DNA from: Saccoglossus kowalevskii
Taxonomy: Eukaryota > Hemichordata > Enteropneusta > Harrimaniidae
Assembly: GCF_000003605.2 (NCBI RefSeq)
Contig: NW_003154742.1
Span: 151,336-185,329 of the forward strand
Direction of reading: 5' to 3'
DNA length: 33,994 bases
Made by a program: the position numbers and the translations under genes. The notes under the pieces were generated by a model. It did not search any database, had not been told where the DNA came from, and saw only the letters and a list, made by a program, of their open reading frames with translations. Numbering within the stretch: the stretch's first letter is position 1; the number at the start of each line of letters is the position of its first letter. Positions 3,601-33,864 of the stretch are shown one piece after another.

Positions 3601-6600
3601 TTTGCATCTGTACATTAAAGTTGAAGTAATCACATTTTGTTCATCCTGATTCAAAATCCAATATTTTAATTTCCGAATTTTTAATCTTCATCGTACTGTC
3701 GTGGATGATCGCTCCAGCACTTTGGGAAGAACTGTTGACATCGTTCTCTGCAGTTAGTAATGGATCACGTATACTAAACACACACGATGTGGACAATGGA
3801 GACGATTCGATGCCTGCTTTATATGGATTCCGAGTTCTCTGTGTGTGGTGGTTGATTGTTGGACAGACGTTGGTACTCCAGGGACCGTATATAGGTTAGT
3901 TAAATGGGTAGGGTCTGGGGTTATTCCCATCATGATTGGAGTTTTTCCGCATCCATGTAATATCAACCTCTTTGCTGTGCGAAATGAACATACACAAACA
4001 TAGCGGTACAATGAATATGCAAAACAGTTTGCATTCAAAAGCAAAAGTGGATATCTAACAGTACGAAATAAACATTTTCACTGGAAAACTATAAATTGAA
4101 ATCCTTTCGCAAAACTCCATATCCTTAATGATAAAAAGTATCCAATCATTGCTAACGCGACCAACACTGTCAGCGAGCGCCTAGCAACACTCTACTAAGC
4201 TTTCTCAGTCCATATTATTGCGGCGTAACAACATTTGCGACACGTGTATACAAGTGTCATTACAATCTTCCCTGTAATGGTCATAATGTTGAAAACACAT
4301 CAATGTATTTTACCATTCTATAATAATCATCGAAGAATGTTATATCTTTCAGGCAATCCGCTGGACCTTGTATACATTGTTCAGTTTTTATTCGTCCAAG
4401 GGGTTTTGTATTTCATGTACGTCGAAGATTCGTTTTTCTTTCTTAGGTGAGCTTAAATTCAAGTCAAATTTAGTGTCTACACTCCATACATCATATGTGA
4501 ACGTATGATTGTTTTGTCGGGGTTGGGTAGGGGAAATGAATAGTGTTGTGAGCTGAATGATTGTTTTGTCGGGGTTGGGTAGGGGAAATGAATAGTGTTG
4601 TGAGCTGAATGATTGTTTTGTCGGAGTTGGGTAGGGGAAATGAATAGTGTTGTGAGCTGAATAAATGATACTTTATAATCGAGTGTACGATGCTTATGCC
4701 GACCACATATCATTTGAAACATCACGTTGTTTGCCCATATAAGTGTCAAACCACGTAGTGTATGTACATAACGCTTGCTAAATATTGTTTGTTTCAGCGG
4801 CTTTCTCTTGGCATATTACTCGCTGTCAAAGATGAAAGACGATGGTAAAGAAAACTGGTTCTATTTCTATATACATCGTATCTGGAGGTATGAACTTTAG
4901 ACTGGAAAGAGAAATTGGAATTTTGTTTTACTTTTTATGTTTATTTTTTTTGAGATTGTTTATTTATGTCAAAACCTATCGTAATCATAACTGCGCGAAT
5001 CTTTCCTATATAATACTGATTGTATAGCAACATTTATTTCAGACAATATTATATACAAAAATACAGTGGTCATAATTATTTGACCAGATCTTTCAGAAAA
5101 AAATGTATTTTTGATCGGTCGTATCAGTTTTTCACCAATGTTACTATTCATTGCAGGCTTACTTTAACATATTATATTGCCATATTTTCGTGGATGTATC
5201 TGGTTGAATTGTTTGCCGGAGGGCCCTTCAAATACTATCACATGGAAAGTTTAGAATACTGTTACGACAACGTTTGGTCGAACCTTCTGTATATAAATAA
5301 TCTATATCCATATCCAGGTAGTCTGGCTGAGCAGGTACGTAACCTAAACGCCGAACCACATGATGTATTTACGTCGACGGTCTGAAAATCATTATTACGG
5401 TGTCAACGTAATATATATCACGAGTACGAGGAAACAGTATATGTATTCATACGCACATTGTTTTAATCTGATAGTGTGGAGCGTGGTGGTGGTTCATGGG
5501 ATGTTTAATGCAATTCTACATTGTCACGCCGCTAATTCTTATACTAGTTCACAGGTAAGTAGTAACTGATCTGCTATCATCAGCAAAACACCATACAGTT
5601 AAGGAAAGCTTAGAAATAACTCCCATGTGCTGGAAGTATTAAGTAGAAAGTAGAAATAAGGAATTTATTTTTATATATAACAAATATTTTTTTCAGCAAC
5701 ATTTTAACGTATATCATAAAAAGAATTGAACTTGATATCCAGTAGTGATTGGTGACATCATGACATCATATCATTATTCAAGGGGCGCGTACTGAGTGAC
5801 TGTACTGCTATGTTGTTTCAGAATGTTCTAACACATAATGCAATACAACGCAATAACATTCCAATCGGTTTTATGATAGTACTGTGGACACGCATGCTGT
5901 ACCCAATAAATTACTTCACATTTTCCATACAATTTTAATATTTGTTAACTTTATTATTTAACGTTCACAGAAAGCCTATCATTGGTTTTTCGACTATTGG
6001 CATACTTATTGCTATGTGCGTTTGTTGCACAGTGGCCCTGGCCGAAGCGTATGAAATACCAGTTACCTTAACACAGTCATTACAAGGGTGAGATGAAAAA
6101 GAAGTCAATGTCAATCATGATTTCAAATCCCCAGTATAACCGAGAATGAGAATTGCTTTCTCCATTTCAGATGCGATTAGAAACTGTTAATTTACGAAAT
6201 AGCAACAAATCTACTGTTGAATCCAAATGTATTGTATGTCAACCACAATTAACCAAAATGTTCAAAGGAATATAGCTCAAGAACCAATAGTTTCTTAAAC
6301 TTTTTTGGTATAACAGGTGATAACTGTGTCGTTGCTTCTTGCACGAAAGTATTACAAAGTGTTGTCTGAACACGTCAATCCAAATGACCACAGTGACTCT
6401 CCGAATATGTCATGAACTACGTATAAATACTCTTTTGGAATTATTTGTAAACACTTCGATCTTACCAATGCAATAATACGCCGAGTGCATTCGCTATGTT
6501 TGTAATAATTTGTTAAATGTAGCAAACACTTTTTTGCGATTAGGTCCATAGTTTTACGAGATTCGAATATGAAACATTAATACTTTTGTTTGCAGAGGTT

Positions 6601-15500: not shown

Positions 15501-18500
15501 TTTCACCCATTCCTTGATATTTAGATGTTGTACACCTGTTTTGGCAAATGCTTACTAAAATCATGCTTGCTTGCTCTGCTTCTGGGAATTAATATTGAAA
15601 TTATTTTGAAGTTTATAGGGCCTGTAAATAATACATATGCATAACATGATTTTTTTATGAAATAATTGGTAACCCTGTTGCTAAAATAATGAGAAGACTC
15701 ATGTCTAAAGAATAAACTGTGTTCACATAGCACCCATGTACATTAAGACTCCTTATATGGTAACTCATTTTTATTTTTTTAGTTGAAGTCAATTTTTTCT
15801 CCACATATCAGTCAGCCTGTGGCCGTTTTCATGTTTCTGTTCACATATCGGATATAAATGTGCATGTCACTGCTTTATTTTAGGTTTCTTGTCATATTTT
15901 TAGAAAAAAAAAATAATACANNNNNNNNNNNNNNNNNNNNNNNNNNNNNNNNNNNNNNNNNNNNNNNNNNNNNNNNNNNNNNNNNNNNNNNNNNNNNNNN
16001 NNNNNNNNNNNNNNNNNNNNNNNNNNNNNNNNNNNNNNNNNNNNNNNNNNNNNNNNNNNNNNNNNNNNNNNNNNNNNGTGTAAGGGTGTGGTGACCAGGT
16101 CACAAACTAGTTAATATTTTGAATAAAGACAACATAAAGAAGTATAAAGAGCAATGCTATGTGTACACAGAGAGACTATAACATTGAGCAATGATGACTT
16201 AGATTTAGGGTTATCCGAACCCGCCTATTCACATAGTTCATACCTACCATAGACTTTGGTCAGTCAAAATGACTATTTTGAACTGTAGGCATTAATCAGT
16301 GATTCTGCCAATGACGGAGAGATAGAATCTAGGTCAGGGGAAGCCCCATGACCCCAAGATTTTTTTCCATTACGTCATGAACCACGTGACCGACGTAATG
16401 TGGCGGCACCATCATACCCTGATATTCACCTGATATTCAAGAGTGGGGTGGTTGGGGGGACCTGGAGTCTATGGTGGGTATGAACTATGTGAATAGGCGT
16501 GTTCGGAGAAACCTCTGCATAAATTCACTACGTTCAATTACCCACCATAGACTTGAACTGTAGGCAGAGTCAGACGCCGATAGGTGGCAGGTTTCCTGAG
16601 CAAACAGAAAATGATGAAAGTCTTTTTTCCCATTCTGAGATGACACACTCTACAACTACCACTCATCATCTAGACCCCAAAAGAGGGTGGTGTCTTACCT
16701 TGCCTGTGCTGCCCCTGGAGCAAAACAGCCAAAAATGCTGCTACGGTGACAGAGTTCGGTGTGCCCAAGAAAGCTATATCCAAACCCAATTCAGGGGTAG
16801 TATGCTTTCGAAGTGAAGACCGAAACAGTTCTGCATGAGGACAAGAGGTCGAAAAGCGAGACCTGGAAACTTCCAATGAGTGCTGACGGTAGAGGAATCT
16901 GTTCGCAAAGATGCTGAGACCGACTCATTGCCTATGCGCAAGGACCCTTGTGGTCGTTCGGGCGGGGTCAGCAACTAGAGTCTGACCTGCTACGACGGGA
17001 TCCAACCTAAAGAGGCCCTCCTCAATGGATTGGGTGTCTTTTAGGTAGTAGTTAATAAAGACGTTTGCGTGCTTCAGAAGCCTGCCCTCAGTATATGTTC
17101 GAGGGGGGTGTCTGATGCTTGCGCTAGTGAGTTAGCAATTGCACAGACCTCATGCGCTCGTACTTGGTGTCTCTGCAAGCTCTGTGTCGAGGAAGTTAAA
17201 ATATTATATAGACCTCTAATACAGTCGCAGTAATTCACCTGGCGATGGAAGTTGGGAGGCCGGCCTATCCTGCCTGCCTGAGGATGACGATCAACTTAGG
17301 ATCATGTCCTGGGATTTTGTTCTTGGCGAGGAACCAGATTCATGTCTTTAGCACAACTTGATTGTTCATAAGGGCGGAACAGTTGTCAAAGAAAGACAAT
17401 GCCCCCAGTTCTGACTGACGCCTACCTGAAGCGAGGGCCAGTAGGAAGACCGTTTTCCACGTCAAAAATTTGAGTGGTGCTGATTATAGAGGCTCAAAGG
17501 GCGGTCTGCTTAGAGCGGACAGCACAACCAACAAATCCCAGTAAGGCAGTTCCCTTGTTCTGGGTTTCGGCCTCTGATTATAGAAGGCAGTAAATAGTCT
17601 CCTAATAATAGGACAATCGGCTAGTCTTGTTCCAAAAGCTTTCTCAATGGTGGGGGACAAGGCTAACCTGTAGCCAACGATTGCTGCGTAGGACAAACCC
17701 ATGTCGTCAAACAGGTGCACAAAAGAGTCTGTTACCTGGCCAATAGAGCGATGTTGTGGATTGATCTCCCTTCCGCTACACCAATCAGTGTATGCTCACC
17801 ACCTAGAATTATTGGTGGGATCCCTGTTCGCCCTGGCCAGGAAGTTGGCAGCCCGCTCAGACAAGACATTCGGTAAGTCCGGAAGCACTACTGGTGTTTC
17901 GACTAGCATTTCCAACAGAAGTGGAAACTAGGCCATGGTTGGCCAATTGGGTGTGACCAGTGTCAATATGCAGATGTGCCCCCCTGTCGAAGTTTTCTTC
18001 GGAACCCGGTAAACTAGCGAGAAGGGAGGAAAAGTGTATACATCTATGTGGGTCCACGAGATCGGCAAGGCATCCCTGGACAGGCTCTTGGAGTCGGCAG
18101 GAGTGTTATGTACATCGGGAGCTTGGCGTTCCAGGGTGTGGTGAACTGGTCATTCTTTGGACCGTCCCACAGCCAAAACAGCCTGGAGGCTACCCTGAGG
18201 GGTATCTGCCACTCCCTGTTCTTTAGACGGAGCCGCCTTGAAAGGGCGTCTGCCAGACTGTTCCTTACCCCTGGAAGGTGGTGTGCGGTTAGCTCCACAT
18301 TGTATTCCAGGCATCAAAGGGGAATTTGCTCTGCTGGGACTGACAACGGGGCCGTATACCTTGGGCTTGTTCGTCTAATAGATGCGTTCCACAACCTTGG
18401 AGGGAAGCATCTGTTACCAGAGTCATAGCTGCGGGGAGTCGGTCCAAGAAGACCCCTTGTCCGAGGTTTGCCAGTGACGACCATCAAGGCATAGCTTCCT

Positions 18501-21420
18501 TCGCTTCATTTGAGATCTATACCTGCCTGTCTAGTTCCCGTAGGTGAGCTCGGTGTTGTAGCAACAAGCGTTGTACACGACAGCTGCGTAATGCGGCCTG
18601 GGGAACTACCCTTCGAATTGAAGTCATCATTCCAATGATCCACATTAGTTCTCTAAGGGACACTGAGGGAACGCTGACTAGGCGTGGATCCACAAAGGGA
18701 GGAGGAGGAAAGACCGCCAGAAGCACAGTTTCATCGTTGCCGGGTAAACCACCGCCTGAAACAACAGACTGTGAGGATGCCCTCCGATCAGGGGGGGGGG
18801 AGAATATCAGTACCTCCACCGTCAGGCCTCCTACTCAACGTCTCAGTACACGAAGTATCGCTAGCTGAGCATGAGGACTTTCCACTCATGCCAACACGCA
18901 ATTCACTTTAACCAATTTTTACTGGACATGCGACCTTACTGCGAGCCTCTGGTGTTGTCATTACATCTATTCATTTCTAAATAGATTGGTAAAACATAAA
19001 AATGAACACGACATGCTTGAGGGAAGCGAAATACAGTTGAAAAGGTGACGCAAAAAAAATAACTAAATTGTGTCGCCGGGTTTTATTTTCTTTGTTGTGA
19101 AAAATTATACACACAAAGTGGGAAATCGACACTGGGGGAAAAATAATAAGAAAAACTTATCCTACCAGCCACAGTGTCGGCCACCGTGGCCGGGGTAGCA
19201 ATCTAAGCTAGAAATCTGGACAGGAAAAGCAAGGCATTCCAGGCAAAGCTGTTAAACTTCACCCCCGTCAGTGCGCAGATAGAGAAAGAGTGAATATCAG
19301 GGTATGATGGCACCGCCACATTACCTAGGTCACGTGGTTCGTAACGCAAGGGAAAACAATCGTGGGGTCATGGGACTTCCCCTGACCTAAATTTTATCTC
19401 TCCGTCTTTGGCAGAATCGTTGATTAATGCCTACAGTTCAAAATAGTCATTTTGACTGACCGGAGTCTATGGTGGGTAATTGAACGTAATGAATTGACTT
19501 TTCAGCATAAACTCATAATTCTTTGAATGCAAAAGACATGCATTTAATATCAGTTCTGATACTTTCGTGTACAACAATTTTATAAAAAACAATACAACAC
19601 GCACTTACCTCGCAAGTAATGGTAATGTTTGGATTCTTGCTAAGTTGACCAGAATTTGATCCATAGAATGCATACACCTCTCCCTTTCAAAATAATAACA
19701 GCAATTAAACCAAACATTGAAGTTTTATATTATTCTATCTCATAAACCAATTTAAAGCACTGAAATGGCCAATAGGTTAATTTGCATGCAAGCTATGGAA
19801 GTTGAAAATCATTTAAACATACATTTTTTATTTAAAAACTGTAATGCGATCATATATCTGACACTTAAAATAAAAAGACATGGTAAACAAACATGGGTTT
19901 ACATACTTACTGTATACATAAGACTTTCTGAATTGACAGAAGGTGCACTAACAATTAGATCATTCAATCCATCTACATTAAGATCCATAACTAAGATGGC
20001 ACTTCCAAATCTACCATTATACTGTAGTAAAAAACGTATTTAATTTGAAATTAAATTTTAAGCATAATAAATAATATAATAAATATACAGCACTTCAAAC
20101 ACTGAATAACACTGCATAATAAATAATTATTTGTTAATCTTGATACTTAATAGTCTTTTAACTTTTTCACCACCAGACCTTCTCACTCAAATTTTTCTAC
20201 ATTTTTTCCTTATATTCTTCAATATTTCTGGAAATGAACCCTAATTTTGGAGCCACCAGACAAAATTTGAGTAAATTTTCAGTTTTTACTCAAAAAATAT
20301 GGATATTTTTGTCCCAATCTACTGAAGGAAAGTGCAGACTATAAACAGGACTATTTTGTAAAGTTGTGATGAAAAGAAGCAACTGGTGGTGAAAGGGTTA
20401 AAAAGATAGTACCAATTTCCAAGAAAGCAGAGTTCCAGTTATCATGTAGTATTGATCCACTATTATGACCAGGATCCTGTGATTTTTTTTACATACACTG
20501 AGGACAGCACACAGAACAGTTTTACATCCTCAATGACAGAACACCATTCTTCCAACTAGTGAAGCATTGAGCCAGTGGTGAGCCAACCACAGGAATCAAA
20601 CCCACAAATTTTCCTGATACTGGACTCACTATTAAAACACACAGCAGATTTAATAGCCAACCACAGAAATCAATCTGAAATCTCCCTGATGTTGAACAGA
20701 CATGGTATCCATTAAAACAAATACCAGGTTATATATTACCTTGATGCCTTCTAGGATCACATCAGCTTGTTCATTTAAATCTTTATCTAGTAATGGCAAT
20801 CCTGTAACTTTCCCATACACAATATAAACACGTCCTTGCTGGTAGTTGTTGTTTACGTATAACCTGGTGCCCCAATAAGTAAATCCAGAAATCCATCATT
20901 GTTTATATCAGCAGTAACTATCTTCCTAATTATGAAAACAAATTGCAGTTTCTATGAATGATGTTTTATTTGAATGCTCAATATTATGATTACAAATCAT
21001 TGTTAATGATACAGTCATGTTGCAATTAAAATGAATGTTATTCCTGAAATCTAAATTTTATGCAAATGAGTTATAAATTATTTGTTTGTATGCAAATTAC
21101 CTAGAGTCATTTTATTACTTCTTTATATGTGGTGAATGACAAGCATTTACAGGTAATTTGTCATTTGTCATGTCTGTAGTTTTAACAGTAACATAACATA
21201 ACAGTACATCTCATGTTTAGCATGTTACATGTACAAAACAGTATTAACAATTTAAAGGTTAAAATAGTTAAGTTTTGTTCAACATATAAAAATGTAAAAC
21301 TTGCCATCCAAGATGGGTATATGGAGTTTTAACACTGTAGGTTGCATCAGGCTTTGTCAGATCACCAGCTTCAACATTCCCACCATTTCTTTTTAGTTCT
21401 TCCAAGTTGAGCAATTTGTC
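9549..21420 (-). CDS. GPLD1: GPLD1 C-terminal part: FG-GAP beta-propeller (exons 12-24)
   Basis: Calcium-binding FG-GAP signatures are readable: ADINNDGFLDLLIGAPGY (exon 13), MDLNVDGLNDLIVSAPSV (exon 14), GDLNQDGFDDLVVGSPFAP (exon 16), SFGKLGSAMATG (exon 18), ARFGNKIVIHDITGDDI + DDLLIGSS (exons 19-20), SRFGSDIALLKHIK + GVDLIVSAV (exons 23-24). The protein ends ARLSGAVHVFKIK at TAA 9549-9551. Exon 22 is a 27-nt micro-exon (ASAEYGTNE). Exon 16 ends in phase 1 but exon 17 starts in phase 0, and human GPLD1 has about 17 extra residues at this point, so a roughly 50-nt exon is probably unlocated. Exon 17 ends in phase 1 but exon 18 starts in phase 2. Confidence 0.85.
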
Positions 21421-27400: not shown

Positions 27401-30400
27401 TATGATTAATTCAATTTCATATAAAAAGCCAAATAATACAAATAAAAAGGATGATCCTTTCATAGATACAGTATTTTTCAGCAGCACTCACACATGTCGT
27501 GAATAATTAGAAAAACTTACATATAATTATGCATTCTTCTCAATCTTTTAACTCCTAAGTAGTCTTTCCAATGCTAATTTTTTTTCTTCCAAAAATTTGC
27601 AAATTTTTTTAAAAATTGTTTGGTTAATCTTGGTGCAAATGGAAACAGTTGAGTTAGTTTAATTTCTTCCACACAACCTGAATTTGGTTTTCACAGTTAA
27701 ATGTGTGTACATGAGTTACCTAATGTGTCTAATCTTAGCTTCACAAAATTTGAGTTCTCCAATTAAAATTGAAAATGGTCCCCATTTAGGGGTTAGCTAT
27801 TTCACTAACAAAAAAGACAATTTTATAGAAATGGTGATTTCATTCAAGAAATGTTGCCATTAGGAAATTTCAAAGTTCATAATTCCATTAAGGGGAAAAC
27901 ACTACCTTGCCCATTGTCTGTAGAAATCCTTGATCAATTCCCAAACTATGCCAGCTGACATCAGCAACATCATGGGAAACAAAGCCAAGTAAAAATACAA
28001 CTAGTTTTTCTGTTTCCTGAAAATAAAAGCAAGTTTCTGCATCAAAACCTGATTCTGAGGGTGTGTACATTATTTGATATACCAAATCAGCACATTTCCA
28101 CAAACAACAAAATGGCCATAGTTACAGGGACATTTAACGATTCCTTGACAGTCATTTACAAATTGTTGTAATTCTGAAAATAAAATAAATATAGCATGCT
28201 GAATAAAATTCTGATTAAAATCTGTTCAGTCTCTAATTTTTTTGCAGTTATTTTTTTTAACTGCCATTATTATATTTGTTTTTAATATCATCTACACCTA
28301 TATTGTTGGTGATGTTTATCATTTTTATCAGCCTTCAGATAAACAGCTATATCCAGTTTATAAAAATTATTAGTTTGTTTTTAAATTCAGAAAGTTGAAA
28401 TAAAAAAAATGTATGACACAATACTACACTTACTGGACTCCACGGCTTAGGATATTTTGTTCTGATGTAATTAACAGTGGCATTGATAAATTCAGACCAA
28501 TGGGTGTCTTCTGATACATCATGATATTTGCCTGTCAATATATGCAAATTTGAACACATGACAAACGTATATTCAGATCTACAATTCTGCTAATTTAAAG
28601 AAAACACACTAGGGTAAACTGGACAGAACGTGGGTACCTGAACTGTTCATCAGTAAACTACCATACCTAGTGGTAGCAAATTTAAGTTTGTACTTCCTGG
28701 CTGACATTTAGTAGGTCCTTCATTCAAATGCTAACAGTTTTTAAAACCAGCAAAAATACATTGACCCAAAACAACTGGCCATGATTTATTAAGATATACA
28801 ACAATGGGGGGATCTTGGTCAGCGTGGGCTATGTGTTTGATCAAATGTGCTTAATACATGCTCATTAAATTGTCATAATTCCATCACAAAGGAATACATG
28901 GTCGCATCCCTATCACGTAGTCTCAAACATGAAATATTGTTTTCATAGTTGACACAATTTATCACAGATATCAAGAATGCTATTCAGGAGTGACAGACTG
29001 TAAACCGTTTAATTTTCACTGCTAGAAATTGTTGCCACTGTGTTGTATCACTGACACTGTTGTATGACCTCCTGAACTGCATTCTTCACCACAAAATGGC
29101 CATCAGTTGGCCATTTTGAACTTGATCCGCCAAATAAAATTATGATCATCATGGTCAAACCAAATCCATTTCCAGAATATGGTGAAAATGTGTGATTTTG
29201 ATGCATTTTTGGTCTTAAAATAGCTGACATTCGGCAATCTTGAATTTGATAATGAAAAAATGCAAGTCCGATAAAATGCCATATGAGTGAGAAGTTTTAT
29301 TTTGTTCTCACCATATGACTGGATATGCATTATATGCATATAGATAATATACTTCAATTACCCAAGTAGGTTAATGCACTGCTCTCAATTTTGAACAAGC
29401 ATGCCCGTTATTAACAAACCACAGAGCACTTAAGGACCTTGCAAAAATGTTGCATCTGAATATGTCTTCTTCAGAGCATGAGGTGTTACTGGTGCTGAAC
29501 AACTAAGCAATAAGACTAAGGAAATGAGTCTTCTATGCATTCATAGAGTAAACACAGAAGCGTAATTTAGTTGAAAATATATTTCTGAATCCGTTTCCCA
29601 ATACCTAAAATGTGAACGAAAAAAAAACTTAAAACAGCTTAAGCTGATATTATGTTTACAATAAATAAAAAAAAAAAAAACAGTTGGTAGACAGTTTATT
29701 ATGTCATTGTTTACGACAATCTCCGGTTGTTGATAGAGATTTTCACAACTGCAATGTCATTTTCAGGGCCTGAACTGGCGCAAATTACTTGATCAAGAGC
29801 ATTTTTACCTTTAACTCGTGAATAGAATGTCTGCTATATAAATATTCAGGTTGAAAGTAATCCAACGATGTATAGCCAGAATTTTTTCTCATTCAAGCAA
29901 AAATAAATGTAATTTTCATCTATTTCGCTGACTATTAAATATGTATTGATAACTTGTAACACTTATAGCAGAAGTGCATGGTTTTATTGTAGTGAGCAAT
30001 ATTGTGATCAAAATAGGATTACTATAGAGGTTGCCTTGACAACTTGCTTTAATACACTCAAATAGAGCAAATATGGTATGTTCATGTTCTCACCCTGTAG
30101 ACAAATTGAATCATAGAAGGTATCTGGAAACGGATTACCAGCTTGAAAAGCATCCTGATGTTGATCAATCAACTATAAAAAATCAAAAGAAAAAGAAAAA
30201 AAATTATGAAATTATCCATAATCTAGTTCTTTCCAGCATCAACACAAATAATTTATGAAGATTAATACATGTATAAACGTATGATATATAATCCAGTGAT
30301 TTGATTGGTTCATATAAACAGTTTGACCCTTGACCTCACTAAGTTATGTTGCATTCAATTCTTACAAAATGTGAAAGGCTGCTGATAGAATTAGCCAACA

Positions 30401-32955
30401 ATTTACATAAAGTGTTGACAAATGTCCCTATAATCATTAATGAATTGATGGGTTCAAAAATGAATTAATTATTTAATCGCATGTTCAAATAAATATCCTA
30501 ATGATAGTTTTTTGCTGGCAAAACCTGGGTGAAATAACTGGAAATGCTTACAAGTAATGAATAGGATATCAAAATTATTGTGTGAGGCTTGTAATGAAAT
30601 ATGAAAATTATTATACCTTATAATATACATATATATATAAAATTACAAGGTCACTCGTTGGTCGCCATGACTGCCTCAACAGCAGATGATGATTTTGAAA
30701 TAGTTTAAAGTGCACTCTGGCTAATACACAGCATATAATATGTAAAATACCTGTCTATAGTCAGTACTGTCTGATTGGTGTATATAACATACCTGTCTAT
30801 AGTCAGTACTGTCTGAGTGGTGAATATAACATACCTGTCTATAGTCAGTACTGTCTGATTGGTGTATACATGTATAACATACCTGTCTATAGTCAGTACT
30901 GTCTGATTGGTGTATATAACATACCTGTCTATAGTCAGTACTGTCTGAGTGGTGTATATAACATACCTGTCTATAGTCAGTACTGTCTGATTGGTGAATA
31001 TAACATACATGTACCTGTCTATAGTCAGTACTGTCTGAGTGGTGTATATAACATACCTGTCTATAGTCAGTACTGTCTGAGTGGTGTATATAACATACCT
31101 GTCTATAGTCAGTACTGTCTGAGTGGTGTATATAACATACCTGTCTATAGTCAGTACTGTCTGAGTGGGGTATATAACATACCTGTCTATAGTCAGTACT
31201 GTCTGATTGGTGTATATAACATACCTGTCTATAGTCAGTACTGTCTGATTGGTGATATAACATACCTCTATAGTCAGTACTGTCTGATTGGTGTATATAA
31301 CATACCTGTCTATAGTCTGTACCATCGGAGTGGTGCTGAAAAAATGACGCTGCTCGATGTGCTGAAAAGAATAACCAGGAAATAGAAATTTAATGTATTA
31401 ATTGATGTAAAGCTGTTATATTTTTTTCATGATGTTATAACTACTGTTTTTGTAACCATGCTATCTCTACCTACTATTAAAATGTGAATTGACATGTGAT
31501 TAGACGCACAGACACCGAATGTTGTTACACTGTTTCCATGACACTTAAGGTAGAAGCCTAATCATAATTTTTGACAAAATTGGTCATAAATCGCATGACA
31601 ATGTTCATTAGTTTATTATGTACAATCATAAAGCTAGTTTCCCATGGTACTATGAAATAGCATTATTTTGTGTGTTACAGTTGGGCTTTTTGAGAAACGT
31701 GTCCTAATATTTCTTGAAAGTTGCTATTTTTAGAACTATTCCATAGAACACAATATTAAAGAAAAATTGTATTTTTGACACTTTTTAAAACCCAGATTTT
31801 TTAAATAATTCAGAACAACAAAAAGTACTCCATCATTAACAAAATGATTTTTTCAGCCAATGTCACCAGGTTTAGTTTTTGAGATATTGCATACCCGGTA
31901 ATATCTCTGCCATAGGAACCTGTGGTAAAATCGTTATAATAGTGTCAAAATGGCGACTTTCCACTAAAATACAACCATCAATTTCTCAAAAAAAAGGCTG
32001 GTGACCCCCAACTTTTTTCAGGTCAATATTCTTATATTGCCTTGGAGTACAATTTATTGCGAAATGAATAAATTCTGTTTTTTTTAATTTATGAGTAGGC
32101 ATCTATCTTAATGGTATATAAATTATGACGACTGCAAATTCATTGAGGTTCTTTCAATGATAACAACTTCCATAACATTTTCGTTGTAACAACTGTGTCT
32201 CTAACAATTAGAAGTATGTAAGTATATGCAAGACTAAAAAAAATTTTAAACAATAAAAAAGATTTCGATATTTTCTAAATATCATTTATTTTCACACTAA
32301 TTTTAATCATTTTTGGATTCAATTACAAAGTCTTCAAATGTTATCTTATGGCTAATTACATTATTGTTTAAATACATTCAGCAACGAAATCCAGATTTCG
32401 CCTTGTTATGTTTACAGACTATACAAGTGAAAATTCATTGTCTATATTTTAAAGGGCGGTGCTCGTCGTGCAGCGCGTGTTCGAATACCGCGTAAAAAAT
32501 AATGTATTTTACACGCGTTGAGTACGTCGCTATGGGTATCGAACAGAACACAGCGCTTGGATGGGGTGACTTGCGGGTTGTCAACATGGCCATCAGTAAG
32601 TTATCTGATCTACTTTATACTCAGAACTAATAAAATAGCCCATCGCTTGTGTTCAAACAATATTTAACCTAATCTTGTCAGCCTCGAGTACTTTTACGTG
32701 TATTCATTGACTTGACCACATAGAGTTATTAGTAAATCAAAACAGTCCCGTCTTATATAAATCATGTATCAGGTTCGACGACGTCACCAGGTAGCCCCGC
32801 CCTCCGCCTGCCCCTTCAGACTTCAACACTGGCCGTTGCGACTTACCAATTTCTGTGTGAGTGATACCTCCGCAACAATCATGACCAACTGTGCACAATG
32901 TTATGAACAACGTGACCACGTTCATGAAGCTCGTCAATAAAAAGCGGTAACTCAT
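9549..32955 (-). CDS. GPLD1: GPLD1-like glycosylphosphatidylinositol-specific phospholipase D, at least 24 exons
   Basis: Exons in order: 32955-32847, 31361-31306, 30172-30094, 28531-28434, 28016-27906, 27198-27150, 26810-26750, 26238-26131, 24885-24858, 24691-24552, 23773-23581, 21420-21305, 20925-20740, 20021-19911, 19683-19609, 15387-15234, 14370-14262, 13812-13625, 12535-12350, 12006-11947, 11742-11633, 11521-11495, 10361-10314, 9632-9549. They total ~828 codons; vertebrate GPLD1 is about 840. The protein has a signal peptide, a zinc-dependent phospholipase domain and FG-GAP beta-propeller repeats. The enzyme hydrolyses the inositol phosphate linkage of GPI anchors and is normally secreted. 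Phases agree at all junctions except 16/17 and 17/18. Exon 13 has a one-base frameshift and intron 12 has a GC donor, so the assembled copy cannot be read straight through. Identity is firm; integrity is not. Confidence 0.93.
10998..11203. mobile_element. MITE copy 1 (TACTGTAAAATACTTTAT family)
   Basis: The left end TACTGTAAAATACTTTAT is inverted at the right end (ATAGTACTTTACAGTA). The interior aligns with the copy at 14592-14803 (shared TTTATTTTCACT, TTTTTGA, GAGTAGATCGTAAAATAT and TATATTCAC blocks). No coding capacity. Confidence 0.75.
13198..13535. mobile_element. Dispersed MITE-like repeat, copy A
   Basis: It shares collinear blocks with 25025-25356: ATTAACTGCAGAAT..GAATTTAAGC, TTGATTTGTAAACAA, TATGTCTA, CAGGATAT, GAACATTTTATG and GAATGTAACTTTAA. 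Ends are weakly inverted repeats. Confidence 0.65.
14592..14803. mobile_element. MITE copy 2 (TACTGTAAAATACTTTAT family)
   Basis: Same family and orientation as 10998-11203, with ends TACTGTAAAATACTTTATTT and AAATAAAGTATTCCACAGTA forming terminal inverted repeats. It lies in GPLD1 between exons 16 and 17. Confidence 0.75.
15921..16077. other. Assembly gap (157 N)
   Basis: A run of N lies in GPLD1 intron 15, just outside the DIRS-like insertion. Reading frames drawn across it are meaningless. Confidence 0.99.
16241..16429. repeat. DIRS-like element, right inverted terminal repeat
   Basis: It starts TACCTACCATAGACT and runs to ATACCCTGATATTCACC. It pairs with 19290-19478 over its whole length. 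Its outer extension (about 16209-16240, TCCGAACCCGCCTATTCACA) is copied in reverse in the internal complementary region. Confidence 0.85.
16467..16553. repeat. Internal complementary region of the DIRS-like element
   Basis: The first half (16467-16512) is the reverse complement of the right outer end (16207-16254). The second half (16522-16553) is the reverse complement of the left outer end (19464-19495). The two are fused head to head, which is the circle-junction template described for DIRS1 replication. Confidence 0.8.
16990..17800 (-). pseudogene. DIRS-like tyrosine recombinase, broken
   Basis: The N-terminal part reads AAIVGYRLALSPTIEKAFGT and CPIIRRLFTAFYNQRPKPRT, then LTWKTVFLLALASGRRQSEL, which contains the first catalytic Arg region of DIRS-type recombinases. 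The C-terminal part reads RAHEVCAIANSLAQASDTPL, then, after a one-base frameshift, KHANVFINYYLKD, where the nucleophile Tyr is expected. The usual Arg of the second box (HxxR) is Cys here (HEVC). Several stops interrupt it, so it is not functional. Confidence 0.75.
17810..18700 (-). pseudogene. DIRS-like reverse transcriptase C-terminal part and RNase H-like domain, broken
   Basis: Minus-strand translation in shifting frames gives LRELMWIIGMMTSIRRVVPQ, then TLVTDASLQGCGTHLLDEQA, then HHLPGVRNSLADALSRRL with EWQIPLRVASRLFWLWDGP, then a YTFPPFSLVYRVPKK block and PLLLEMLVETPVVLPDLP. These match the DASxxGWG, HxPGxxNxxADxLSR and FPPF-L-R motifs of DIRS polyproteins. Stops replace expected codons, for example TAG at MA*FPLLL and TGA/TAG at AMP*WSSL. 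Confidence 0.75.
19290..19478. repeat. DIRS-like element, left inverted terminal repeat
   Basis: Reverse complement of the other arm, ending GTCTATGGTGGGTA. The outer extension ATTGAACGTAATGAATT (19479-19495) is copied in reverse at 16522-16539. Confidence 0.85.
20158..20401. mobile_element. piggyBac-like MITE with TTAA target duplications
   Basis: The 236-bp element (20162-20397) starts CTTTTTCACCACCAG and ends CTGGTGGTGAAAGGG, inverted relative to each other. TTAA flanks it at 20158-20161 and 20398-20401. A TTAA duplication and C/G-rich tips are typical of piggyBac-derived MITEs. It sits in GPLD1 intron 12-13 sequence and has no coding capacity. Confidence 0.75.
20740..20925 (-). pseudogene. 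GPLD1: GPLD1 exon 13 with a one-base frameshift
   Basis: After the FG-GAP motif LLIGAPGY the frame reaches ACG TAA near 20856-20861. Shifting by one base restores NNNYQQGRVYIVYGKVTG and the rest of the exon. The exon must enter in phase 2 (TG|G across the intron) and leave in phase 0, which needs 187 nt modulo 3, but it has 186. One base is therefore missing in the assembled sequence. This may be a sequencing or assembly error or a real null allele; it cannot be decided here. Confidence 0.8.
21303..21304 (-). promoter_or_regulatory. GPLD1: Non-canonical GC splice donor after GPLD1 exon 12
   Basis: Exon 12 ends ...CATCTTGGATG and the intron begins GCAAGT on the minus strand. Only this cut gives phase 2, which joins to exon 13 as TG|G (Trp) to read HLGWKIVTADINNDG, as in the family. 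A GT cut four bases later leads into a stop in exon 13. GC-AG introns are a known minority class with an otherwise strong donor consensus, as here. Confidence 0.75.
21480..21645. repeat. Degenerate tandem repeat with core ACCCACAATGCA (left block)
   Basis: Four or five units of roughly 36-40 bases share CCCACAATGCAGC followed by TTTCTCAATTGTAAG-like sequence. A matching block is at 23425-23515, beyond the Crypton-like relic. Confidence 0.65.
21665..21780. repeat. Palindromic repeat near the Crypton-like relic
   Basis: GTGACTGCATGATATTGGATTTATCAAA on the left is mirrored by AATAAATCCAATATCACACGGTCAC on the right, leaving a loop of roughly 45 bases. It may be an independent fold-back element or an element end. 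Confidence 0.6.
22171..23330 (-). pseudogene. Decayed Crypton-like tyrosine recombinase (DUF3504 type) in GPLD1 intron 11
   Basis: From about 23260 downward the minus strand reads, with stops between pieces, LPPHELEKKLAKLIFSFHKM, NTLWFRNTIHLGLRGDTEYY, then after a frameshift WGDIQLYIDSTIHIYLEFTE, FSINKIGTIMKKLATAA, QLVNTYSIISEMQHGQISGI and APIFGGPVSRGVFNVHI. This order (TVWFLNT-HFGLRG, WGD, EYLxFxERQ, GxNKLGxxMKxMA, INxYSxxSxxQQxxMS) is that of the DUF3504 recombinase family, which includes Cryptons and domesticated ZMYM/QRICH1 genes. The 252-residue open stretch (22171-22929) is its surviving C-terminal part. The NHSxRKT catalytic Arg block is not intact (NKPQSKETS). Non-functional. Confidence 0.68.
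23425..23515. repeat. Degenerate tandem repeat with core ACCCACAATGCA (right block)
   Basis: Three units (GTTACCCACAATGCAAAG, GTTACCCACAATAGAGC, TGTACCCACATTA) in the same orientation as the left block, suggesting one array split by insertion of the sequence between them. Confidence 0.6.
23581..32955 (-). CDS. GPLD1: GPLD1 N-terminal part: signal peptide and zinc-dependent phospholipase domain (exons 1-11)
   Basis: The first ATG (32955) gives a hydrophobic leader, FMNVVTLFITLCTVG, then CCGGITHTEI + AHRAASFFQHH across exons 1-2, the mature N-terminus typical of GPLD1. Exon 3 encodes DQHQDAFQAGNPFPDTFYDS. Exon 4 encodes YHDVSEDTHWSEFINATVNY. Exon 5 encodes LLGFVSHDVADVSWHSLG. Exons 6-7 encode GSFEDAHDVGDIGGDIAALF. 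Exon 8 opens with WYIPVQDLIEIFQDFY. The His and Asp residues in these blocks match the expected metal ligands of the zinc-dependent phospholipase C/D fold. Exon 9 is only 28 nt (RFGERIAVGE). Exon 10 carries SKKSPFLMEQYQSYFLGGVD. Exon 11 is the linker to the propeller. All eleven exons join in consistent phase with no internal stop. Confidence 0.92.
24965..24990. repeat. (TTTG)n microsatellite
   Basis: Short run TTTGTTTGTTTGTTTG in GPLD1 intron 8. Confidence 0.85.
25025..25356. mobile_element. Dispersed MITE-like repeat, copy B
   Basis: Begins TATAGTTGCATTCCCATTTT and ends TGGGAATGTAACTTTAAG, which are inverted repeats of each other. Homologous to 13198-13535 in the same orientation. It directly abuts another inverted-repeat element at 25365. 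Confidence 0.7.
25365..26004. mobile_element. Non-autonomous DNA transposon, about 640 bp
   Basis: The left end AGACCTTAGAAAACAGGG..GGACATGC and the right end GCATGTCCCTGTTTTCTAAAGTCT are terminal inverted repeats of about 28 bases. No open frame of note inside. It lies in GPLD1 intron 8. Confidence 0.72.
26352..26366. repeat. Poly-G tract, 15 bases
   Basis: An uninterrupted G run in GPLD1 intron 7; its length is likely uncertain in any assembly. Confidence 0.85.
28532..30093. other. GPLD1 intron 3, no gene recognised
   Basis: 1.56 kb, AT-rich. Around 29100-29260 there are phrases such as TTGGCCATTTTGAACTTGAT and TTCGGCAATCTTGAATTTGA that look like diverged units of a repeat. Frames there carry no recognisable domain. 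Confidence 0.45.
30747..31305 (-). repeat. 42-bp minisatellite of about 13 units copying GPLD1 exon 2 3' end plus its splice donor
   Basis: On the minus strand each unit reads CACCACTCAGACAGTACTGA then CTATAGACAG|GTATGTTATATA. This matches the exon 2 end (HHSDGTDYRQ) and its GTATGT donor. Variant units differ in length by +6, +6 and -3 bases, so the GPLD1 frame stays open from exon 2 through all units to a stop near 30721, giving repeats of about 14 residues (VCYIHHSDSTDYRQ). Nearly every unit keeps a usable GTATGT donor. The plus strand and one other minus frame are also open, which is a by-product of a unit divisible by three. Confidence 0.9.
31306..31361 (-). CDS. GPLD1: GPLD1 exon 2, source of the adjacent minisatellite
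   Basis: This 56-nt exon encodes HRAASFFQHHSDGTDYRQ and ends CAG|GTATGT. It joins exon 1 in phase 1 and exon 3 in phase 0. Its last ~30 nt plus the donor and first intron bases are what the 42-bp array at 30747-31305 repeats; the exon itself forms the terminal, slightly diverged unit. Confidence 0.88.
31385..32440. other. GPLD1 intron 1, 3' two-thirds, no gene recognised
   Basis: AT-rich non-coding sequence with homopolymer runs. Nothing supported apart from the exon 2 acceptor (TTCTTTTCAG, minus strand, ending at 31362). Confidence 0.45.
32450..32595 (+). other. Candidate upstream first exon of the TIR gene
   Basis: This stretch is CpG-rich, unlike its surroundings. It contains an ATG (32586) in a reasonable context, followed after ten bases by GTAAGT (ATGGCCATCA|GTAAGT). 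Joining to the CTAAAG acceptor at 33181-33185 would keep the frame and read M-A-I-K-K-M-A-S-H, extending the TIR protein by five residues. It lies antisense within GPLD1 intron 1. Inference only. Confidence 0.35.
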
Positions 32956-33190: not shown

Positions 33191-33701
33191 ATGGCGTCCC
33201 ACCAGGTTCTTCACGAAGGCGACGACGCTCCAGATTTTTTCGTCACCGGTGATCCTGCAGAACACATCTCAAAATGGATCGATGAAATTACAACACATAT
33301 GGAAAATAATTTCCGTGTGGTTGGTGCTTTTGGTGACCGGGATTTTATCGGAGGACCGCCAATACTAGTTCAGATAACGGAATTCATAGACACATGTAAA
33401 CGAACCATAGTGGTATTCGACGGACGCAGCCGATGGGCAAACTACGCCGCGCAAATGGTCATACATCGAATGTTCCAGGAGAACGCTGAGAAATGTAACG
33501 AACGTCTTATCATCGTTTTACGAAACAAAGAAGCTGCAAAACAAGTGCCAACATTTCTGCGAAACAACCACACACTCAACGCGGATGCGAAGGATTTCTA
33601 CAATAAGTTGTTCTACAGTGTCAAAGGTTACAGCTCGAAAGAAAGGTATAACCTAAACAAACAGAACGAAATTTTACCAAAGCAAGAAACAGAAAACCCC
33701 G
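33191..33701 (+). CDS. Divergent TIR-domain protein, first exon (gene continues past the window)
   Basis: 170 codons from ATG 33191 to a GTGAGT donor at 33702, ending in phase 1. The TIR fold is suggested by APDFFVTG (strand A, residues 13-20), amphipathic KWIDEITTHMENNFRVVG, the box-2-like GDRDFIGG (48-55), KRTIVVFDGRSRW (70-82, the SxxW region) and ERLIIVLRNKE (104-114), then a low-complexity tail. The Glu that follows the Trp in canonical TIRs and acts in NADase TIRs is not evident (WANYAAQM). A cytoplasmic adaptor-like signalling role is likely. No signal peptide or membrane segment in this exon. No downstream exon can be assigned. Confidence 0.75.
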
Positions 33702-33864
33702 GTGAGTGAAAATATATATGAGTGAACTATTAGTTTTAAATTGACCCACTGCTATAGTACCGTAATTGAACACCAAGTATATGTACATGTTAGATCATGT
33801 TAGGAAATGTAAATTTTGTTAGGAGTGGGGTGGCAGATATGAGTTATTTATAGGTTAAAATTTT

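Follow-up and report, generated by a model that had tools for sequence, protein, structure and literature searches.

The GPLD1 gene of the hemichordate Saccoglossus kowalevskii carries, just inside its second intron, a minisatellite in which the end of exon 2 and its splice donor are repeated head to tail. We found this array in a 33,994-nt stretch of the genome assembly (GCF_000003605.2, contig NW_003154742.1, positions 151,336 to 185,329; hereafter the window), in which the gene lies on the minus strand. Its anatomy, donors, and reading frame can be read directly. The array is probably a boundary minisatellite of the kind described as mirages in amphioxus and mostly spliced out with the intron. 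It is also possible, judging from the sequence, that protein-length variation arises from it.

Anatomy of the array

Tandem Repeats Finder placed the array at 30739-31322 with a period of 42, 13.7 copies, and 91% matches. Cutting at every ...GACTATAGA(CA)G/GTA delimits 13 units, nine of them 42 nt long and the others measuring 40, 41, 48, and 48 nt (table 1). Each unit is a copy of the last 30 nt of exon 2 with the GTATGT donor and 12 bases from the start of the intron, and the common unit is identical at 38 of 42 positions to the last 30 nt of exon 2 and the next 12 nt of the intron. This confirms the description, made in an earlier sequence-only reading, of about 13 units copying the exon end, its donor, and the first bases of the intron.

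Units 5, 6, 7, and 9 are identical, as are units 3, 10, and 13. Differences comprise four substitutions in exon 2, frame-shifting indels in units 1 and 2 (in unit 2 a deletion of 1 nt), and an altered donor after the last unit. Near-identical units with differences in these places are as expected from turnover within the array. The palindromic hexamer ACATGT is inserted at different sites in units 8 and 11. A search of the 572-Mb assembly (572,110,611 bases in 4830 contigs) with exon 2 and the array, which is known from one haplotype, found only the array's own locus, the single candidate scored, and a search with the region of exons 1-3 gave no other match over an exon among the best 40 of 2109 candidates.

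Donors and reading frame

The sequence-only reading saw a donor in almost every unit, and GT is in fact kept at all 13 downstream donors: 11 are GTATGT, one is GTACAT (31014), and one is GTATTT (30750). Together with that of exon 2 there are thus 14 donor sites in a row, 13 of which are in frame. Predicted pairing with the 5' end of U1 is -8.8 kcal/mol for both the exon 2 donor and the unit donor, -9.1 kcal/mol for exon 1, and -9.0 kcal/mol for exon 3. The two altered donors are predicted to pair at -7.6 and -7.7 kcal/mol and the donor at 31265 (GAG/GTATGT) at -6.9 kcal/mol, the weakest of the donors computed, against -14.5 kcal/mol for the full consensus.

The host frame had been said to stay open through the array, and it does so for 212 codons, from exon 2 to the TAG at 30723. 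However, three of the six frames are open through the array, and among random 42-mers with intron composition (n = 5000) a given frame is open in 36%, and precisely three frames are open in 27%. The open frame was therefore rejected as a sign of coding and is likely explicable by chance. A Pfam search with the 222-aa array frame listed ten families, each below its cut-off.

Unit-length variants were thought to be multiples of three throughout. This is correct for both +6 variants, but the supposed -3 variant is a -2 in unit 1 and a -1 in unit 2, so that the frame is restored only across the two neighboring units. For this reason the donor at 31265 is out of frame; its use would add 40 nt and run to a stop. 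All the other downstream donors (12 of 13) keep the host frame, and to that extent the proposal that they would add n x 14 residues stands. Since the final ten residues of exon 2 are recreated in each unit, nearly every donor would rebuild the SDSTDYRQ/LIDQHQ junction with exon 3.

We infer that tandem duplication of a segment holding the exon 2 end, the donor, and the first 12 bases of the intron was followed by expansion of the array, whose units stayed alike through unequal exchange or slippage; this would have left 13 additional donors in the first part of intron 2. Most messenger RNAs (mRNAs) would probably be spliced at 31305, presumably the main donor, and would lose the array with the 1133-nt intron, about 49% of which it makes up. 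When a donor farther downstream was occasionally used, the product would in most cases be a longer, in-frame protein, so that errors of this kind would be tolerated rather than selected for.

Host gene and exon layout

GPLD1 exons are numbered here by coding exons only. Joined, exons 1, 2, and 3 read MSYRFLL...GITHTEIAHRAASFFQHHSDGTDYRQ-LIDQHQDAFQAGNPFPDTFYDSICLQ, with junctions in phase 1 and then phase 0. Zn_dep_PLPC matches the hand-joined exons 1-4 (5.1e-07, above cut-off). Among five further frames scanned, one matched Zn_dep_PLPC (1.3e-05, 25.7 bits, slightly below the cut-off of 26.8), one matched FG-GAP (1.1e-10), and three had no match. Zn_dep_PLPC together with FG-GAP is a layout that we take to be the architecture of GPLD1, and both matches support the assignment of the host to this gene, as the sequence-only reading had it. 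No relatives of the joined N-terminus were found in PDB, and PF00882 gave no match when searched in the worm's own genome, presumably as introns interrupt the domain.

Table 1. Coordinates of the GPLD1 array, its host exons, and the second array (window positions unless a locus is given)
Feature	Position	Strand	Description	Basis
Boundary minisatellite	30751..31305	-	13 head-to-tail units, 555 nt; each closes with a copied exon 2 end, then a donor	
Unit 1 and first base of its donor	31265..31305	-	2-nt deletion, GACAG to GAG, giving GAG/GTATGT; donor 31265	
Unit 8	30967..31014	-	+6 nt; ACATGT inserted within its donor, giving GTACATGTATGT	
Unit 11	30835..30882	-	+6 nt; hexamer ACATGT at a place other than in unit 8	
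Intron beyond last unit	30721..30750	-	Altered donor GTATTT; in-frame TAG at 30723..30721	
GPLD1 first coding exon	32847..32955	-	MSYRFLL...GITHTEI; donor ATTG/GTAAGT; phase 1 end	Joined reading and Zn_dep_PLPC
GPLD1 exon 2	31306..31361	-	56 nt; preceded by AG; donor CAG/GTATGT at 31305; phase 0 end	
GPLD1 exon 3	30095..30172	-	Starts LIDQHQDAFQAGNPFPDTFYDSICLQ; phase 0 join; 3' end approximate	Joined reading
Second exon-donor minisatellite	L003:7121-8513 (G000:C4410:17121-18513)		36 bp, ~34 copies	

A second array on the same contig

We examined 24 further 10-kb stretches, 20 of them on the contig of the window, and one contained another long array with donors (L003 7121-8342, period 36, 34 copies), which stops at a run of N. 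This sister array, of the same anatomy as the GPLD1 array, starts at the end of a 190-nt exon with one open frame, and in the host frame its first unit translates as V S L stop stop. LRR and IQ domains were found in three of the four minus-strand frames scanned upstream, and on these grounds we take the host to be an LRRIQ1-like gene; the 190-nt exon itself had no match in Pfam or PDB.

Comparison of the sister units was based on 29 intact 36-nt units out of 33 pieces, four having been dropped for length. GT is missing from 4 of the 29. Variation averages 4.0% over the donor columns, compared with 3.7% for the exon-like end and 6.1% for the remaining columns. Of the 36 circular blocks of six columns, 16 (counting the donor block itself) show variation no higher than that of the donor block. 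The donor thus does not stand out, although it is somewhat better preserved than the remainder of the intron part. As the sister array would bring host-frame stops and yet persists, such arrays can persist without coding use, and it is the best control at hand for the GPLD1 array.

Frequency of donor arrays in the genome

A census of 178,789 non-N bases at 32 loci (L001, L020, and L028 were left out as overlapping or mitochondrial) contained three arrays of 10 or more copies whose period was 18 or longer. Two of the three begin at a donor, a small sample in which one is the GPLD1 array itself. By comparison, 5.9% of 20,000 random 42-mers hold NNGGTRWGN and 1.1% hold ..GGTA[AT]GT. The local proportion of two in three should not be extrapolated because the genome is rich in minisatellites.

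Across the whole genome, motif triplets spaced 15-45 gave 32 matches for CAGGTAAGT versus 21 for the reversed motif, 791 versus 736 for AGGTATGT, and 3292 versus 6341 for GGTAAGT; these numbers include overlapping matches and large satellites and are not counts of arrays. A genome-wide excess of donor-bearing repeats is not consistently seen, two of the three motifs being slightly above the reversed control and one far below it. Among the matches listed, long arrays with donor-like units occur on contigs C710, C868, C505, C886, and others of the assembly (G000), those of C710 and C868 extending over more than 15 kb.

Alternative explanations

Several observations weigh against an array that is mostly discarded with its intron. 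Its edges are not clean, as unit 13, the last, equals units 3 and 10, and the +6 insertions fall in units 8 and 11, inside the array. The -2 indel is offset by the -1 indel, the periods of both donor arrays (42 and 36) are divisible by three, and the sister donor columns are, as given above, slightly less variable than the part of the unit that is not exon-like. Intact array donors are about equal to those of exons 1 and 3 in predicted U1 pairing. Exon 2 differs from the unit at four of 30 exon positions, three of the changes being synonymous; with 17 of 90 possible single changes synonymous, P is ~0.02 for three or more of four. This could reflect coding constraint on the array, but constraint on exon 2 alone fits equally well, because the changes can be placed on a branch only with an outgroup. 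Finally, the 66% of human cases with a repeat-keeping transcript (PMC2812944) would, by analogy, argue against dismissing exon use of the array.

If the downstream donors were used regularly, exon 2 would become a variable exon of 56 + ~42n nt, GPLD1 would gain n x 14 residues, and array length would translate into protein-length variants. This is in keeping with the 12 in-frame donors, with a frame open to the array end, and with a unit donor whose predicted U1 energy is near those of the flanking exons. Human introns modified by repeats, in the available text of PMC2812944, are likewise often found in repeat-keeping transcripts as well, nine of ten coding cases being in frame. We nevertheless consider regular use unlikely. 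An open frame is expected by chance; of the three columns that vary in the set of nine 42-nt units, two are nonsynonymous (H/P, H/Q) and one is silent (ATA/ATT) when the codons are read by hand in frame; and an array with host-frame stops, which cannot code usefully, persists on the same contig. Moreover, amphioxus mirages are reported to be regularly spliced (PMC3087553, available text). The in-frame potential behind the suggestion that copy number varies protein length or tunes splicing is real, and a role of this kind is hypothetical. It is rather improbable that the array is a length-variable, donor-studded exon extension, in which unit-number alleles and tissue-dependent donors would produce a ladder of GPLD1 isoforms, each 14 residues longer than the last at a single site in the catalytic domain, as an instance of boundary minisatellites recurring in a second deuterostome phylum.

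Inclusion of an exon can be enhanced by U1 sites that lie downstream of it. A row of such sites past the short 56-nt exon could recruit U1 and boost inclusion of exon 2 with the sites themselves unused as donors, which would agree with the 14 successive donor sites and the shortness of the exon. We give this little credence, since in the sister array the donor block does not stand out: counting that block, 16 of 36 six-column blocks show equal or less variation. The unit donors and the AG ends of later units might instead allow parts of the array to be removed as new short introns. A typical unit runs from GTATGT to ACAG and has TACTGAC, which resembles the branch-site consensus, shortly before the CAG. 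Intron gain by tandem duplication of AGGT has been proposed (PMC4974935, PMC3087553). However, TACTGAC lies only ~10 nt from the AG, no pyrimidine tract was seen on reading the unit, and an intron in the making is very improbable here.

Other features of the window and the assembly

The window has a GC content of 35.6%, and an Rfam search of it gave no matches. Within GPLD1, it includes a run of 157 N (15921-16077) and retroelement-like frames (16500-18900), so labeled from reading the letters alone. An interspersed repeat of ~567 bp lies in intron 1 upstream of exon 2 (31545-32111) and has at least 39 other near-full-length copies of 88-93% identity among the matches listed. Head to head with GPLD1 is a TIR-like frame on the plus strand (33203-33709; TIR_2, 22.5 bits, below the cut-off of 28). 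At 4505-4662 a 52-bp G-rich unit occurs in three near-perfect copies, which lack the donor motif sought.

On the 17,037-bp mitochondrial contig (L028, G000:C4830), COX1 is inverted between ND1 and COX2. Nine of the ten ATA codons in the COX1 frame fall within the alignment with PDB chains and, read by hand, face Ile (5), Val (2), Leu (1), and Met (1) in 7o37_a and Ile (5), Val (3), Leu (1), and Met (0) in 1occ_A. The one AAA codon of COX1 faces Lys, and the eight AAA codons of ND1 are at positions that we take to be conserved Lys. From these alignments, ATA apparently reads Ile and AAA Lys in this mitochondrion. The reading of ATA as Ile is common to echinoderms and hemichordates, and that of AAA as Asn is peculiar to echinoderms (PMC2697986, available text). 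The mitochondrial codons suggest, with moderate confidence, a hemichordate host. Mitochondrial gene orders of Branchiostoma, Epigonichthys, and Asymmetron, as reported in the available text of PMC2034537, are without this COX1 inversion, and a lancelet as host was rejected.

Comparison with known systems

Mirages are minisatellite-like duplicates of exon-intron boundaries in amphioxus, those of Adh3 having units of 10-72 bp (PMC3087553), a range that includes the 42 bp of the GPLD1 array. The Adh3 data and that study's own reverse transcription-polymerase chain reaction (RT-PCR) suggest that regular splicing is undisturbed by mirages and that cryptic use is possible (PMC3087553). Further amphioxus mirages are found in PGBD5 and troponin C (PMC3902484). 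Like those of Adh3, the globins BflGb6/BflGb9, PGBD5, and troponin C, the GPLD1 array consists of intragenic tandem boundary copies, many units of which carry AG/GT. Its unit spans the boundary (38/42) and contains splice signals (GT in 13/13, GTATGT in 11). Both mirage reports concern cephalochordates (PMC3087553, PMC3902484), whereas the GPLD1 array is from a hemichordate; we term it mirage-like because that restriction describes the range of reports and not a mechanism. None of the mirages described in the available text of these reports, unlike the GPLD1 array, combines an open host frame with donors in nearly all of its units.

De Grassi and Ciccarelli (2009; PMC2812944) reported 27 human intron modifications by boundary tandem repeats, 66% of them with a repeat-keeping transcript and nine of ten coding ones in frame. 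Like the GPLD1 array, these internal tandem repeats span an exon-intron boundary; in the available text they are either kept in or spliced out of the mRNA, and the coding ones are mostly in frame. They belong to recently duplicated genes and have RNA support, whereas the GPLD1 array is known from DNA alone, with no second exon copy in the best 40 of 2109 candidates.

Intron gain through tandem genomic duplication of AGGT has been described for potato RdRp (PMC4974935). As in the GPLD1 array, the duplicated sequence holds a splice signal, but in the available account it makes a new intron, whereas the GPLD1 array sits at an existing intron and adds donors to it. Intron gain by tandem genomic duplication is also said, by its title, to be the subject of Zhuo 2007.

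Minisatellites at exon-intron junctions are natural experiments on splice choice among near-identical donors. The GPLD1 array offers 14 donors in one gene, 11 of the downstream ones sharing the GTATGT of exon 2 and 13 of the 14 in frame. A contrast at the RNA level with the sister array, whose extra donors lead to stops, would bear on position versus context in the choice of donor and on the leakiness of in-frame arrays. In a literature search naming hemichordates, with most subscription journals outside its scope, none of the titles and abstract openings of the 20 papers listed, out of 65 that matched, reported such arrays there. The GPLD1 array probably represents a known kind, the mirage, in a phylum new for it, and its occurrence in a hemichordate would extend a phenomenon reported, within the literature searched, from amphioxus and, in a related form, from human gene duplicates.

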